Shown here piece by piece: positions 5,149-14,930 of a DNA stretch of 52,325 nt. Location of the stretch: contig LVBD01000060.1 of assembly GCA_001604275.1 (NCBI GenBank), forward strand, positions 1 to 52,325, read 5' to 3'. This DNA is from Spirochaetales bacterium Spiro_02 (GTDB lineage Bacteria > Spirochaetota > Spirochaetia > Sphaerochaetales > Sphaerochaetaceae). The notes beneath the pieces are model-generated. The model was not told the origin of the DNA and did no database searches. It was given only the letters and a program-made list of their open reading frames with translations. Made by a program: the position numbers and the translations under genes. Numbering within the stretch: position 1 is the stretch's first letter; the number at the start of each line of letters is the position of its first letter.

Positions 5149-6229
5149 GAACGGAAAGCCTCCCGTCATCGACATCATATATGAGGCAATCATCATCCGC
5201 AAGAGCGGAAAAATACCGTTCCTCGGGAAGAAACGTGAAGAACGCCTGGCTGTAGCCTTCCATCATTTCAAGAAACGCGCCGCGGCGTTTCACGTCGAGT
5301 TCCAGCAGCACGTCGTCCACGAGCAACACAGGCTCCTTTCCCGTCTTCATCCTGTAGAAAGATGTCTGAGCCATTCTGAAGATCAGTGAAGCGAGCCGCA
5401 GTTGTCCGGTGGAGCCAGAAAGCGTAAAAGGACCGTTTTCATCGACAACAACGAACCGGTCTCGATGGACTCCGCTAGCCGTCGTCTGAAGCTTGATGTC
5501 TCGCTGTAGCGTTCTCGCCAATTTTTCCTCGACATCCTGTACTGTAGCGCAGTCTCCCCAAGACGGAACATATTCAATGCTGATTTCCGTTCCGGTGCAT
5601 GATACCTGTCCGTACATTCTAGGAAAAATCTTATTGAATTCGTACACAGCCTTGATTCTCTCGCGTTGTATTTCAATCCCGTATCGGGCAAGCTGTCCAT
5701 CATAGATGGGGATCAGGTCGGTTCTTTCATCCTTGATGGCGGCGTTCCGTTGCTTGAGTATCGCCTTGTATCGACGCATATCGTCGAAAAAAAGTGGATT
5801 GTACATCGACATTGTCTGATCGAAGAATCTTCGGCGGAATTCCGGCTCCCCTCTGACAAACGAAATATCGTCATGACTGAACACGATGCAGGGAACGTTG
5901 TAGATGAGTTCCTTTCTGTCCCTGACTTCGCGTCCGTCGATGGACATAGACCGTTTGCCGTCGAAGAACCGATATTCGATAGTCTGATCGAACCCTTCGT
6001 CATTCTTCAGCGTGGCGGATAAGGAGAAGTCTTTTTCTCCGTGCCGAATCATTTCACGACTGTTGACAGCCTTGAACGACGAACCATAGCAAAGCGTATA
6101 GAGCGCCTCGATAAAATTCGTCTTGCCCTGACCGTTGGGACCTATGAGCATCACCTGCTTCGCATCGACGGAAACGGAGGAATTCGAAATATTTCTGAAC
6201 CGATCGAATCGAACGGAAGTAAATCTCAT
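5138..6229 (-). CDS. recF: DNA replication and repair protein RecF
   Basis: RecF is an SMC-like ATPase that, with RecO and RecR, loads RecA at gapped DNA. The 363-residue protein has Walker A GPNGQGKTNFIEA near residue 30, the family signature segment around LSGSTGQLRLASLIF, and Walker B near LLVDDVLLELD. The ATG shares one base with the dnaN stop (TGATG), pointing to translational coupling. RecR, its partner, is encoded at 46.0 kb in the same window. Confidence 0.96.
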   Translation of the reverse strand: MRFTSVRFDRFRNISNSSVSVDAKQVMLIGPNGQGKTNFIEALYTLCYGSSFKAVNSREMIRHGEKDFSLSATLKNDEGFDQTIEYRFFDGKRSMSIDGREVRDRKELIYNVPCIVFSHDDISFVRGEPEFRRRFFDQTMSMYNPLFFDDMRRYKAILKQRNAAIKDERTDLIPIYDGQLARYGIEIQRERIKAVYEFNKIFPRMYGQVSCTGTEISIEYVPSWGDCATVQDVEEKLARTLQRDIKLQTTASGVHRDRFVVVDENGPFTLSGSTGQLRLASLIFRMAQTSFYRMKTGKEPVLLVDDVLLELDVKRRGAFLEMMEGYSQAFFTFLPEERYFSALADDDCLIYDVDDGRLSVHEG

Positions 6230-7338
6230 CAGTTTGATTGGGGTTGCATCGGCATGACAATGTGGAAATAGTCCCGTTCAGGATCGGGCTTGACGGTCAT
6301 AGCCTTCGTAGGTCCACTGAACTGTAGGAAGAAATGGTCTCCTTCCATGACGCGCAGCGGGCTGAGCAGATACGTGTAGTTCAACGAAAGCTTGCAGGGT
6401 TCTCCCTCGTATTCGCATGGAATGATTTCCTTTGCGGCGCCGAAGTCGCTTTCTTCGGAACTGAGCATGATTCCCGTAGATTCGATGTCCATGATCAGCC
6501 TTTTCGATTTATTCTCCACAAATAGGGACACTCTCTTCAGTGCATCAAGCATCTCCTGGATGGAGACACGGCAAGAGAAAGACTGGCTTTCAGGGATGAC
6601 TCGTTTGTAGTTTGGAAATTGTCCGTTGATCAGCGTAGAGTAGATGCAATGTCCCTCGAAACGCGCGAATATCATTGTTTCCGTTACTGCAAGCTCGAAT
6701 GTCCCTTCTCCTGTACCCATTTTTTTGACAAGATTAAGAAATTTAGCAGGGATGATGACCGATGGAAACTGAGCTGTCTGCTCCATCATTTTCCTTCTGA
6801 TGATGGAAAGACGTCTGCCGTCGGTGGCTACCATTGTCAGGCAGTCCGGAGCATGTTCAAAGAAAACTCCGTTCATGAAGTATCTGGTCTCGTCCTCGCT
6901 GATAGCGAAGATTGTCTGATTGATCATTTCCATGAAGTCGCTTTGAGGGATGGAGAAGTATTTGCTTTCATCGGCGATCTGCAATTGAGGAAATTTATCC
7001 GCCTCGATCGTTCTGAGCTGAAAATCAATGGTCTGTCCGATAGGACGAATCACAAGCTTCATATCTTTTTCTTCGAATTGGACATCCCCGTCTGGTAAGG
7101 TACGCAGAACTCCGAGGAGTTTGTCGCAGAATACGGTCGTAGAACCGGCTTCTACCGTCTTGACTTGGATTTCGGCGGAGAAACCTATTTTTTGGTCGGT
7201 AGCTTTGATGGTCAGCTTGTCGTCGTAGTTCTCGAGCAGAACGTTGGAAACGATCGACAGAGAATTGCGCTGGCTGGTGAAATCCAATGCAAGAGTGATT
7301 TCTTTCAGCAGGTTGTTTTTTTCGCAGACGAATTTCAT
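6229..7338 (-). CDS. dnaN: DNA polymerase III beta sliding clamp
   Basis: The 369-residue protein has the usual length and the three repeated clamp domains (about 1-120, 128-245 and 248-369). It starts MKFVCEKNNLLKEITLALDF and ends in VMPMQPQSN, close to the usual clamp C-terminal VMPMR motif. The dimeric ring tethers polymerases to DNA. An AGGAG SD lies 9 bases before the ATG. A perfect TATAAT (7358-7363, minus strand) just upstream is a likely -10, so transcription would start beside the DnaA-trio of oriC. This suggests that initiation and dnaN expression may affect each other. Confidence 0.97.
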   Translation of the reverse strand: MKFVCEKNNLLKEITLALDFTSQRNSLSIVSNVLLENYDDKLTIKATDQKIGFSAEIQVKTVEAGSTTVFCDKLLGVLRTLPDGDVQFEEKDMKLVIRPIGQTIDFQLRTIEADKFPQLQIADESKYFSIPQSDFMEMINQTIFAISEDETRYFMNGVFFEHAPDCLTMVATDGRRLSIIRRKMMEQTAQFPSVIIPAKFLNLVKKMGTGEGTFELAVTETMIFARFEGHCIYSTLINGQFPNYKRVIPESQSFSCRVSIQEMLDALKRVSLFVENKSKRLIMDIESTGIMLSSEESDFGAAKEIIPCEYEGEPCKLSLNYTYLLSPLRVMEGDHFFLQFSGPTKAMTVKPDPERDYFHIVMPMQPQSN

Positions 7339-7367
7339 TTCGGATTACTCCTATGTTATTATATCTT

Positions 7368-7407
7368 GTAGTAATGGTAGTAATAATAGCACATTTTCTG
7401 TGGATAA
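7368..7407 (-). promoter_or_regulatory. Basal unwinding system: DnaA box plus DnaA-trio
   Basis: On the minus strand a perfect DnaA box (7399-7407) is followed by a 10-nt spacer and seven triplets TAT TAT TAC TAC CAT TAC TAC (7388 down to 7368), then AT-rich DNA with TATAAT. This matches the order of the basal origin unwinding system described in Bacillus, in which a DnaA filament grows from the box onto the trio strand and opens the duplex. Unwinding here would run toward dnaN. Confidence 0.8.
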
Positions 7408-7531
7408 AGATACTAATTCGTTACACCGTTTTTCATTAATCCTTTTCTAACCTGTGGATGAAACGAATGGTTTTTCCACATTCCATCCACAGGTTAATTA
7501 TACTATCCACAGGTTCCTCACTTTTTCCACC
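7368..7531. other. oriC: Chromosomal origin oriC (dnaA-dnaN intergenic)
   Basis: The gap holds a dense DnaA-box cluster. A perfect TTATCCACA lies on the minus strand at 7399-7407. Near matches are at 7453-7461 (minus), 7472-7480 (TTTTCCACA), 7483-7491, 7503-7511 (CTATCCACA) and 7523-7531. Two boxes form a 13-bp perfect inverted repeat (7448-7460 and 7484-7496, 23 bp apart). Next to the perfect box is a DnaA-trio tract (7368-7388). Gene direction switches across dnaA-gyrB, as expected for replication leaving in both directions. Confidence 0.92.
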
Positions 7532-7606: not shown

Positions 7607-9037
7607 CTAATTTTTCTTGTAGTTCTGTATTTCTCGTTCGAGCTTCTGTATCGTGTTGCTCATGCCGGAATCGCTTTTGATCAACCCCTCGATGCGCTGT
7701 ATGGCGTGCATGACGGTGGTATGATCCCTTCCTCCGAAATCATTACCGATTTCCGTCGTGGAGAAATCGGTAATATGGCGCGCTATATACATAGCGATCT
7801 GCCTCGGCTGGACAAGGGATTTCGTCCTCTTTTTTCCGCGAATATCATAGGGGGAGATGTTGAAGTATTCCGCGACCACCTTGATGATGGTGTCGATGGA
7901 CAGGGCCTGGTTTGCGTTGATGATCGGATACGACGTCTTCAATTGCTCCTTGGCGATATCCAGCGTAATTTCCTGACCGAGAAGATCGCTATATGCTATC
8001 AATTTCGTCAGCGAAGCCTCAAGATCCCTGACGTTCGTATTGATGTTCCGACTGATGTAGTCGAGTACGTCGTCCGACATGTAGCTGTTCTTTTCCTCGC
8101 ATTTCAATCTGAGGATCGCCATCCTGGTTTCGTAGTTCGGCGGTTGGAGATCTACGTTCAGACCGCGCTCGAAGCGGCTTCTCAGCCGCGCAGTAAGATC
8201 TTTCAGTTCGCTGATGGGCCGGTCGCAGGTAAAGACAAGCTGCTTGTTCGTATCATAGAGATTGTTGAAAGTATGGAAGAGTTCCTCCTGCGTCGAATCC
8301 TTGCCTTGCAGGAAATGAATATCGTCGATCAGCAGTACGTCCACTTTCCGATATTTGTTCTTGAATGAATTGGTCTTCTTGTCGCTGATGGCCTGTATGA
8401 ACTCGTTGGTGAACATCTCGGCCGTTACATACACGACCTTGAGCATCGGCGTGTGGTCGAGGATATAGTTGCCGATGGATTGCAGCAGGTGGGTTTTTCC
8501 AAGACCTACTCCTCCATAGATCAGACACGGGTTGTAGTTCGTGCCCGGATTCTTCGAAATTGCATAGCATGCGTTGTAGGCGAACGAACTGTTATCTCCG
8601 GTAACGAAGGTCTCAAAACGATATGCAGGGTTTAAATTGCTAGCCTGTCTCACGGAAGCGGACACTGTTTGGGTTTTTTGCTTTTCCGATGAACCGATGG
8701 TTTTTCCAGCTTGGACGGTCTGTTTTTCATCAGCTTCCTTGGCCTGCTTCTCAAGGGCTTCTTTCTGATCCGGATTCAGTTTCTTGACGATGAATTCGAC
8801 TTTGATATCTTCCCCGGTCAGTTCGCTCATCATGTTTTCGATCGGGCTTTTGAACTGTGCTGAAACCTTGTCGAGAATAAACTGTGAAGGAACGGATAGA
8901 ACGAGTCTCCGATCCTTGGAGGAATCGTAGGAAATCCGTGTGAACCAGAAGCTATAATCCTGTTCGGGCAGGGTGTCCTTCATCCGTGAATCGGTCTCCT
9001 GCCAGAAAAGCAAGTAGTTCAGATTGTTCTTCGACAT
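7607..9037 (-). CDS. dnaA: Chromosomal replication initiator DnaA
   Basis: The 476-residue protein shows all four DnaA domains: the N-terminal DnaB-interaction domain (about 1-85), a variable lysine- and glutamine-rich linker (about 88-135), the AAA+ core with Walker A GGVGLGKT (175-182) and Walker B LLIDDIHF (about 235-242), and the DNA-binding domain with GGRDHTTVMHA near residue 440. It opens oriC in the gap beyond its 3' end. No SD precedes the ATG. A promoter-like TTGCAA-17-TAATAT ends six bases before it, so the transcript may be leaderless. Confidence 0.98.
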   Translation of the reverse strand: MSKNNLNYLLFWQETDSRMKDTLPEQDYSFWFTRISYDSSKDRRLVLSVPSQFILDKVSAQFKSPIENMMSELTGEDIKVEFIVKKLNPDQKEALEKQAKEADEKQTVQAGKTIGSSEKQKTQTVSASVRQASNLNPAYRFETFVTGDNSSFAYNACYAISKNPGTNYNPCLIYGGVGLGKTHLLQSIGNYILDHTPMLKVVYVTAEMFTNEFIQAISDKKTNSFKNKYRKVDVLLIDDIHFLQGKDSTQEELFHTFNNLYDTNKQLVFTCDRPISELKDLTARLRSRFERGLNVDLQPPNYETRMAILRLKCEEKNSYMSDDVLDYISRNINTNVRDLEASLTKLIAYSDLLGQEITLDIAKEQLKTSYPIINANQALSIDTIIKVVAEYFNISPYDIRGKKRTKSLVQPRQIAMYIARHITDFSTTEIGNDFGGRDHTTVMHAIQRIEGLIKSDSGMSNTIQKLEREIQNYKKN

Positions 9038-9104: not shown

Positions 9105-9165
9105 TAAATTGTATATATTTTTTTATAATATAAAAATTTAATATTCCCTATTTTTTTACTGGTAG
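9105..9165. other. AT-rich tract in the dnaA-gyrB gap
   Basis: About 60 bases are almost only A and T, rich in T-runs and TATAAT-like words, between the divergent dnaA and gyrB genes. No DnaA box was seen here. It may supply UP-element-like promoter sequence for gyrB or be a second easily melted region near the origin. Its function is unknown. Confidence 0.5.
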
Positions 9166-11244: not shown

Positions 11245-13785
11245 GTGGAAGAATCAACCAACAAGATAATCAGAGTGGACGTGTCGAAGGAGATGAAGGA
11301 ATCCTATCTCAACTACGCCATGTCCGTCATAGTCAGTCGAGCGCTCCCTGACGTCCGGGACGGTTTGAAGCCTGTCCATCGGAGAATTCTCTTCGATATG
11401 TTCGAGATGGGGCTTCGCGCGAATACTCCGTTCAAGAAGGCGGCGAGAATCGTCGGTGATGTGCTCGGAAAATACCATCCGCACGGCGATGCTTCCGTCT
11501 ATGATGCATTGGTCCGTCTCGCACAGGATTTCTCCCTTCGGTATCCGGTGATCAAGCCTCAGGGCAACTTTGGCTCCGTCGACGGCGATCCTGCGGCGGC
11601 GATGCGATATACCGAAGCGAAGATGAGTCGTATCGGGGAGGAGATGCTCGCCGATATCCAGAAGGAGACGGTGGACTTCGGACCGAACTACGACGATTCG
11701 TTGCAAGAGCCGCAGGTCCTTCCCGCCGCGTTCCCCTATCTGCTGGCAAACGGCAGCAGCGGTATCGCGGTCGGTATGGCGACGAACATGGCTCCTCATA
11801 ATCTCACGGAAATCTGCGATGCGATTTGCGCGGTCATCGAGAATCCCGAGATCAGCATCGACGAATTGATGAACTGCATCAAAGGACCTGATTTCCCCAC
11901 TTATGGAGTCATCTGTGGAAGGAGGGGAATCCGGGATGCGTTCTCGACTGGTCGTGGCAAGATCGTGATCAGGGCGCGGTACGAGATCGAGGAACATGCG
12001 AACCACAGCCAGATCGTCTATACAGAGATTCCGTACCAGGTGAACAAAGCGGAACTGGTCAAGAAGATCGACGAGCTTCGGAAGACCGACATTCCTGCGA
12101 TCGCCGCGGTCCGAGATGAATCTGACCGTGACGGGATGCGAGTGGTCGTCGAACTGAAGAAAGGAGCGGTAGCTCGTGTCGTAGTGAACCTGCTGTTCCT
12201 CCGCACGCCGTTGCAAAGCAATTTCAACGTCAACAATCTCGCGTTGGTAAACGGTAAGCCCCAGTTGCTTTCGTTGAAGGACATGTTGGTCCATTTCATC
12301 CACCATCGGGAGGTGGTCGTCGAGCGACGTACCCGGTATGATCTCAGGAAAGCCGAGGAACGAGCCCATATCTTGCTTGGGTTGAAGATCGGTCTGGAGA
12401 ATATCGACGAAGTGATCAAGGTGATCAAGGAGTCGGAGAACAACGATGTCGCGGTCGATCATCTGATGAAGCGGTTCTCGCTGACGCAGATCCAGGCGCA
12501 GGCGATCATCGACATGAAACTGGGGAGGCTTTCCCATCTGGAAACGGAGAAGATTCTTGAAGAGTTGGCCGATCTTGAAGTCAAGATCGCCTATTATAAG
12601 GATTTGCTTTCCGATGAAAAGAAGATTCTCGGTGTCGTTGAACAGGAAACTCGTGAACTTGCCGGCAAGTACGGCGATAAGCGACGCACTGAAATCCGGT
12701 ATGAAGAAATCGGGGAATCGTCGATCGAAGATTTCATCAAGGAAGAGGATGTCGTCGTCGTGATCAGCCATAAAGGCTTCGTCAAGCGAGTTCCGGTCGA
12801 CGAGTATCGTTCGCAAGGTCGTGGAGGCAAGGGGGTTCGTGGGGCGGCATTGCGCGATGAAGACTTTGTCGAGCATTTGTTCGTGGCTTCGACTCACGAG
12901 TACGTCATGTTCGTGACAAATCTCGGAAAGGCGTATTGGATCAAGGTCCATGAGCTTCCAGAAGGGTCAAAAACGGCGAAAGGAAGCAGTATCAAAACGT
13001 TGCTTCAGCTGGAAGACGGAGAGGAAATTTCTTCGATTATTAATTTTAAAGATTTTTCTTCAGATATCTATCTTCTTATGGTAACTAAACTTGGAGTGAT
13101 AAAGAAGGTTTGTTTGGATGCCTTCCGAAATGCAAAAGCACGAGGTGTCAAGGCGATAATCCTCGATGAAGACGACGTGTTGATGCAGTGTGAATTTGTC
13201 TCGAACGGGGACGATGCCATGTTGGTTACCAGAAAGGGTCAGGGTTTACGATTCGCCGAGTCAGATGTTCGGGCGATGGGACGGGCCTCCAGAGGGGTGC
13301 GAGGTATCAAACTGATTGGAGATGATACGGTAGCGGGTTTGGTGAAGGTCGATCCTTCCAGACGTATTTTGATGGTTACAGAGCTCGGACAAGGCAAGCA
13401 GGTTGAATTCGATCAGTTCAATCGGCATGGCAGAGGCACGCAAGGTCAGAAGATATATAGAATTGGAGAAAAGACAAGTCAGATTGTCAATGCTTTGGCG
13501 GTGAATGATGACAATGATCTTGTCTGCATCACTTTGAATGGGCAGACGATTCGTGTGCATGTCAATACGATTTCTATTCAAGGGCGAAATGCAAGCGGTG
13601 TTTGTGTCGTCAAGCTTCGTACCGCGAAAGAGCGCATCGTTGCAATGGCTGTTACAGAATATGCGAAGGATGAAGACGAAGAGGATTCTGAGATTTCGGA
13701 GAACGGAGACGAGTCGGATGTTTCACGTGAAACACAGCAAGAAGTATCTGATGCGGCAGAAGTAGAAATGAATTCTGAAGAATAA
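11245..13785 (+). CDS. gyrA: DNA gyrase subunit A
   Basis: The 846-residue protein is the breakage-reunion subunit. The catalytic Tyr is at 122 (AMRYTEAK), with numbering identical to E. coli. The quinolone region reads [11 protein letters not shown]: position 83 is Ala and 87 is Asp. The C-terminal beta-pinwheel has the GyrA box QGRGGKG, needed for DNA wrapping. The start is GTG with AGAGGA upstream. The protein ends in a long acidic tail (about 805-846). Its codons for DVSRET contain a complete parS palindrome. A terminator follows 24 bp after the stop. Confidence 0.98.
13719..13734. other. parS: parS site inside the gyrA coding sequence
   Basis: TGTTTCACGTGAAACA, a perfect palindrome matching the consensus parS centromere bound by ParB. 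It encodes part of the acidic GyrA tail, in a stretch free of obvious structural constraint. Confidence 0.9.
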
Positions 13786-13839: not shown

Positions 13840-14110
13840 TTGTCTGACGGTGCGTACTCGACGGTAGCAATCCTGAGAGAAGTTTTAGAGTCTTCTCTAT
13901 TCTGTTTGTCTGATGTCTGGTCGCACAACAGAAAGACATTGTTTTTCCCTTCTGGATAGTATTCTGTGTCCAATAGCATTCCAAATGACGCATGCTCTTT
14001 GTTTGCTGTATGAGCATGTTTCACGTGAAACAGCAGTGTTCAGTTTGAGAATGTGTGGAGTCGTTTTTTTATTCACTACAGACGACACGGCGCGTTGTCT
14101 GTAGCGATGG
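13840..14110. other. Non-coding stretch between gyrA terminator and IS remnant
   Basis: No supported gene lies here. It contains one parS (14017-14032) and an 11-bp imperfect palindrome (14076-14086 with 14094-14104, ten of eleven pairs matching). The palindrome has a T-run before it rather than after it on the plus strand, so it is not a plus-strand terminator. Composition is more AT-rich than in neighbouring genes. Confidence 0.6.
14017..14032. other. parS: parS site
   Basis: TGTTTCACGTGAAACA, perfect consensus, intergenic, 298 bp from the copy inside gyrA. Confidence 0.93.
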
Positions 14111-14880: not shown

Positions 14881-14896
14881 AGTTTCACGTGAAACT
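14881..14896. other. parS: parS-like site
   Basis: AGTTTCACGTGAAACT keeps the inner 14-bp GTTTCACGTGAAAC palindrome. Only the outermost pair differs from the other three copies, and it is still a perfect dyad. Confidence 0.87.
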
Positions 14897-14914: not shown

Positions 14915-14930
14915 TGTTTCACGTGAAACA
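14915..14930. other. parS: parS site
   Basis: TGTTTCACGTGAAACA, perfect consensus, only 18 bp after the previous copy. Such close pairing could favour ParB nucleation. Confidence 0.93.

Follow-up and report, generated by a model that had tools for sequence, protein, structure and literature searches.

A DnaA-trio basal unwinding module and an upstream candidate DNA-bending site in the dnaA-dnaN gap of spirochaetes

The dnaA-dnaN gap of a spirochaete was analysed within a continuous stretch of 52,325 nucleotides (the window), which is contig C60 of a Spirochaetota genome that comprises 2.61 Mb in 74 contigs. On the grounds of sequence, spacing, conservation and gene presence, this locus is probably an origin unwinding module in which a DnaA-trio basal unwinding system (BUS) is combined with an upstream DNA-bending site; from these grounds we infer the HU/IHF binding, the bending and the melting. 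The box and trios are, judged by their sequence, an ordinary basal unwinding system of the known kind, since the Bacillota origins used as controls share their layout. The element upstream of the box, which the preliminary description of this region had overlooked although it was right about trio and box, appears to be a second conserved origin element of spirochaetes, a candidate DNA-bending site, and to be new: no open-access literature joining IHF, oriC and spirochaetes was found on this subject.

Genomic setting

The leftward gene content of the window comprises dnaA (7607-9037, minus strand), dnaN, coding for the sliding clamp (6229-7338, minus strand), recF and further genes, while gyrB, gyrA, parA and parB lie rightward. 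The gap between the dnaA ORF and dnaN is 268 nt long and houses the box and trio module, with dnaN downstream of it. The window's dnaN is at most 65% identical to those of its own family; for named loci, all from Spirochaetia metagenome-assembled genomes, the highest identity is 55%. GC skew, computed inside the window, is weak, and Rfam at gathering thresholds gave no match anywhere in the window. Just ahead of parA and parB there are three perfect and one near-perfect parS sites (TGTTTCACGTGAAACA; 13719-13734, 14017-14032, 14881-14896 and 14915-14930), a set with a chance expectation of 0.02. Between the divergent dnaA and gyrB lies a very AT-rich tract (9105-9165) with no DnaA box nearby, which is probably promoter DNA.

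Proximal DnaA box and trio array

Read 5' to 3' on the minus strand, the module runs from the proximal DnaA box TTATCCACA (7407-7399), which is taken as position 0, through the 9-nt spacer GAAAATGTG (7398-7390) and seven triplets (7389-7369) to CAAGATATAATAAC. The box sequence is perfect at a single place in the window, namely here, and the aligned box is conserved in relatives. The triplets read CTA TTA TTA CTA CCA TTA CTA and are followed by CAAGATATAAT. Because a DnaA-trio reads, by definition, 3'-GAT-5' on the complement of the box-reading strand (PMC8287927), the register is CTA/TTA, and DnaA would hold the plus strand. The seven in-register T/C-A-C/T triplets reported in the preliminary description are thus a real array, but the TAT/TAC register was dropped as one base off the known trio, and six of the seven trios are canonical: the fifth is CCA (3'-GGT-5', 7377-7375) and misses the central adenine. 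A BUS is recognised by a DnaA box with at least three trios of the form 3'-NAN-5', ideally 3'-GAT-5', no more than 16 bp away, and the window has six canonical trios of seven behind a 9-bp spacer.

When the 268-nt gap was shuffled 4000 times with dinucleotides preserved, no shuffle scored as well. The 2.61-Mb genome has a single match to TTWTNCACA-N6-16-(YTR)4 and none to its backwards control; a run of four YTR is found at two places in the window, and a box adjoins only the one at 7389-7369. The strand and side of the trios relative to the box orientation are as in the Bacillota controls and all anchored relatives. No second tandem box (+8) is recognisable in the window, GAAAATGTG being no box. 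Such a box stands beside the trios in 57% of known BUS cases and is not obligatory, because single-box systems count as BUS. The AT-rich stretch after the trios (7355-7368, minus strand), which is likely part of the melted zone, contains TATAAT (7363-7358), a possible dnaN -10; AT-rich columns also follow the trios in aligned relatives. The dnaN -10 that the preliminary description placed in the melted zone amounts to this TATAAT; no -35 partner for it is recognisable on the minus strand, and no promoter-like pair was found there.

The DnaA protein fits this picture. With the B. subtilis structure 8BTG as reference for the pocket, the trio-holding residues N187, I190, I193, K222, E228 and R264 are kept in the window DnaA; two changes at the pocket are similar (R202 to K and E223 to D), and N196 is also changed to K. 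In B. subtilis, Asn187 contacts the central adenine of the trio (PMC10721633).

Conservation of box and trios in relatives

The 300-nt regions upstream of dnaN were searched in relatives for a box (at least 6 of 9 positions) and then at least four trios at 16-24 bp. Both were present in 29 of 39 members of the window's own family, 56 of 72 members of other families of the class and 3 of 26 members of other classes, and at most 0.3% of shuffled regions passed. A second set, of named relatives, gave box and trios in 64 of 77, so the triplet register, whose check in related genomes had been proposed, is kept in most genomes of these three sets, which speaks for the trio reading. With register, spacing, strand, orientation, conservation and DnaA residues all in agreement, the earlier proposal of a DnaA-trio beside a DnaA box in oriC is well supported.

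The first trio mostly begins 21 bp from the start of the box, or 18 bp from it where the array is one trio longer, as in the window; a second box at +8 is carried by many members of the class. In a non-redundant set of 92 Spirochaetia origins (less than 60% identity over -60 to -1, aligned on the proximal box), the central A of the trios at +21 and +24 is present in all 92. At +30 it is present in 73 of 92, and the loss there (19/92) is the commonest among trio positions in Spirochaetia; the fifth trio of the window (7375-7377) is the equivalent of this position. The commonest substitute on the trio strand is cytosine (10 of 19), which fits the reported tolerance of cytosine for adenine in B. 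subtilis.

The earlier view that such an array would extend a Bacillus-type model was overstated. DnaA-trios have been predicted in 85% of 2070 origins, and those of H. pylori, Synechococcus and Deinococcus are functional (PMC8287927), so that their presence outside Bacillus is no novelty.

A conserved palindrome upstream of the box

When origins are aligned on the proximal box, several upstream columns rise far above the flank: TAA at -31 to -29, T at -24 and -23, AA at -15 and -14, and TTA at -9 to -7. These columns were seen in the first genome set, again in the named relatives and again in the 92 non-redundant origins, where columns -30, -29, -15, -14 and -8 exceed every flanking column. 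Together they make up an inverted repeat that spans 31 to 7 bp upstream of the box, YAA-N4-TT-N7-AA-N4-TTR, with 9 bp between its TT and AA steps. In the structure of IHF, the kinks are likewise 9 bp apart and contacts are made at the outer TTR. The kinks are made at TT and AA steps (PMC12854757). Judged by its sequence, the palindrome is thus built like an IHF/HU site, the two kinks being separated by 9 bp. In the window, this predicted bend site, TAA tgaa AA acggtgt AA cgaa TTA (7414-7438, minus strand; -31 to -7), has 8 of the 10 core positions, with AA instead of TT at the left kink.

Scoring the core at every offset in the 92 origins gave a peak at -31 (mean 7.27 of 10, z 9.8), for a pattern chosen after seeing the same kind of data that were later scored; neither this z-score nor those below is a probability, because the sequences share ancestry and relatedness inflates all of them. 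A core of at least 8/10 is found in 52 of the 92 origins at -31, in 12 at -30 and in at most two at the other top-ranked offsets, and the core holds in the named relatives as well. A weaker palindrome is seen in the window's own family (mean 6.1, z 5.5), where the left half alone does not give the best offset; the claim is therefore stronger for the class than for the window sequence, despite the 8/10 of the latter. Three checks are independent of the choice of pattern, namely the IHF consensus, the E. coli spacing and the Borreliaceae. The published E. coli IHF consensus (WATCAANNNNTTR / TAANNNNTTGATW) has its best offsets in the class at -19 in reverse orientation (z 5.9) and at -31 in forward orientation (z 3.6), its GAT part being weak. 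Compared with this consensus, the window has the TAA, AA and TTA, and AA for TT.

The Borreliaceae (28 genomes, L227-L254) were left out of all pattern derivation because their proximal boxes are too divergent to anchor. Scored at the only offset that preserves the spacing to the trios, their palindrome core has a mean of 7.9/10. The dnaA-dnaN gap of all 28 (e.g., L238, upstream of position 1500) carries two tandem AATYNRACA at an offset of 8, and YTA triplets follow the pair in most Borreliaceae. A closely similar pattern was found at a single place per genome in the four Borreliaceae genomes scanned. The Borrelia DnaA box has been stated as an open question (PMC9879097). AATYNRACA is a candidate for it, and the fixed box-palindrome-trio geometry may thus serve to predict the DnaA box of Borrelia.

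Further DnaA boxes upstream

Beyond the palindrome, the window has a distal DnaA box, TCATCCACA (7453-7461, minus strand), in the same orientation as the proximal box at -54, followed by opposite-orientation boxes TTTTCCACA (7472-7480, plus strand; -73) and CTATCCACA (7503-7511, plus strand; -104) and the box-like TTTTCCACC (7523-7531, plus strand; -124). Same-orientation upstream boxes of spirochaetes fall at -57 to -52 (22/88) and -45 to -40 (27/88), one helical turn apart, and opposite-orientation boxes lie further out. In relatives the latter (-60 to -123) recur at steps of about 10 bp, at -73, -82, -102, -112 and -123, of which -73 belongs to the commonest offset class; this suggests a putative phased array. 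The idea that a distal same-orientation box (-43/-54) is peculiar to spirochaetes and E. coli was rejected, as 6 of 7 Bacillota controls carry one.

The HU/IHF-family protein

The window's genome has a single HU/IHF-family gene (C73:4312-4578), and exactly one was found in most of the 61 genomes searched. Among solved structures, an IHF fusion and Borrelia Hbb are the closest to its protein, while HU is clearly further away, and the NPKTG tip is kept; the protein scores below the NCBIfam IHF cut-offs, though it is nearer to IHF/Hbb than to HU. The match to Hbb extends over 95 residues with 92 bits. Hbb is a homodimer that binds and bends DNA, is presumably linked to the Borrelia chromosome origin, and disruption of hbb was not achieved. 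A homodimer would fit the symmetric site.

Proposed mechanism and alternatives

We propose that DnaA would bind the proximal box (7399-7407) and, about 54 bp upstream of it, the phased box of the same orientation (7453-7461), while a homodimer of the single HU/IHF-family protein would occupy the palindrome (7414-7438) between the two boxes and fold the DNA. The fold would bring the distal DnaA beside the proximal box. An ATP-DnaA filament starting at the proximal box could then extend along the plus strand over its 3'-GAT/AAT-5' triplets and stretch that strand, so that the trios and the AT-rich DNA would open toward dnaN.

The locus might instead be a plain BUS, with the upstream columns representing a weak DnaA site, like tau1 of E. 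coli, or a self-bending A-tract. Tau1 overlaps the IHF region in E. coli, the TTA at -9 to -7 doubles as the start of a DnaA box, and the region is AT-rich. Moreover, B. subtilis tolerates synthetic DNA with one distal box in place of the native DNA upstream of box 6, and HU is able to act without sequence specificity. A weak box would, however, leave unexplained the mirrored TAA at -31 to -29, the TT and AA exactly 9 bp apart and the exact E. coli IHF spacing, and the palindrome is kept in Borreliaceae despite their different box. We consider this explanation unlikely.

Another reading takes the upstream element for all or part of the dnaN promoter, with the triplets simply lying in its transcribed region. 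In some relatives TATAAT or TATAAA stands just before GAATTA, and the Borrelia origin also adjoins the dnaN promoter. But the core score stays the same whether dnaN begins as little as 39 or as much as 225 nt away (near versus far, 7.29 versus 7.20), the conserved positions differ from those of a -10 box, and no promoter-like pair was found on that strand. Since the element keeps its place relative to the box rather than to dnaN, the dnaN promoter was rejected as a source of the conserved columns, and this reading is very improbable. That melting occurs in the dnaA-gyrB gap, the trio region only regulating dnaN, is hardly credible: the tract at 9105-9165 is very AT-rich and Borrelia DnaA binds the dnaA-gyrB gap in vitro, but there is no DnaA box with 0-1 mismatches between 7512 and 9552, no other box-adjoining trio array exists in the genome, and the dnaA-dnaN module is conserved across the class.

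Comparison with Bacillota and E. coli origins

The trio module with its candidate bend site can be set beside two well-studied origins. With the BUS of B. subtilis and other Bacillota it shares the DnaA box, the short spacer and the in-register 3'-GAT/AAT-5' triplets on the opposite strand. Spirochaete relatives further share the box-to-trio distance of 21 bp and the second box at +8 with Priestia, Paenibacillus, Acetoanaerobium and Staphylococcus epidermidis, the Priestia control having the layout TTATCCACA-TTTCCACAGCCC-CTATTACTACTACTA. The window differs in lacking the second box, and its family often starts one trio earlier (+18). A distal same-orientation box is present in Bacillota as well, one or two helical turns further (-43/-44 or -53/-55), and this spacing, common to Bacillota and the R5M of E. 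coli, agrees with the helical phasing reported for B. subtilis (PMC6669920). In contrast, where Spirochaetia have the palindrome, five of the seven Bacillota controls have an opposite-orientation box (-33 to -35), and the core scores 3-7 in the seven.

The upstream part resembles the left half of E. coli oriC (R1, IHF site, R5M). The IHF site of E. coli oriC has been given as GATCAACAACCTG (PMC4285127). Read in the direction of R1, it is CAGGTTGTTGATC at -31 to -19 from R1, and the spirochaete candidate bend site falls on the identical interval. Beyond it, both have a same-orientation box, R5M (TCATTCACA) at -55 in E. coli and TCATCCACA at -54 in the window. The spirochaete site differs in being symmetric, as expected for a homodimer, whereas that of E. 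coli is asymmetric, and the predicted melted zone of the window is a clean trio array.

We are therefore inclined, with some reserve, to regard spirochaete origins as composite, with the box-trio system of Bacillota joined to an E. coli-type bend module at identical spacing and served by a homodimeric IHF-like protein. IHF has been described as confined to Proteobacteria, Nitrospirae and Nitrospinae, with IHF sites in only some species (PMC10316083, PMC10797057). If the composite reading is true, the bend-box-trio layout would be ancient and no proteobacterial addition. A class-wide spirochaete bend site at the E. coli distance would unite the loop-back picture of E. coli with the filament picture of Bacillus, and their one geometry would allow both models to be tested within one origin.
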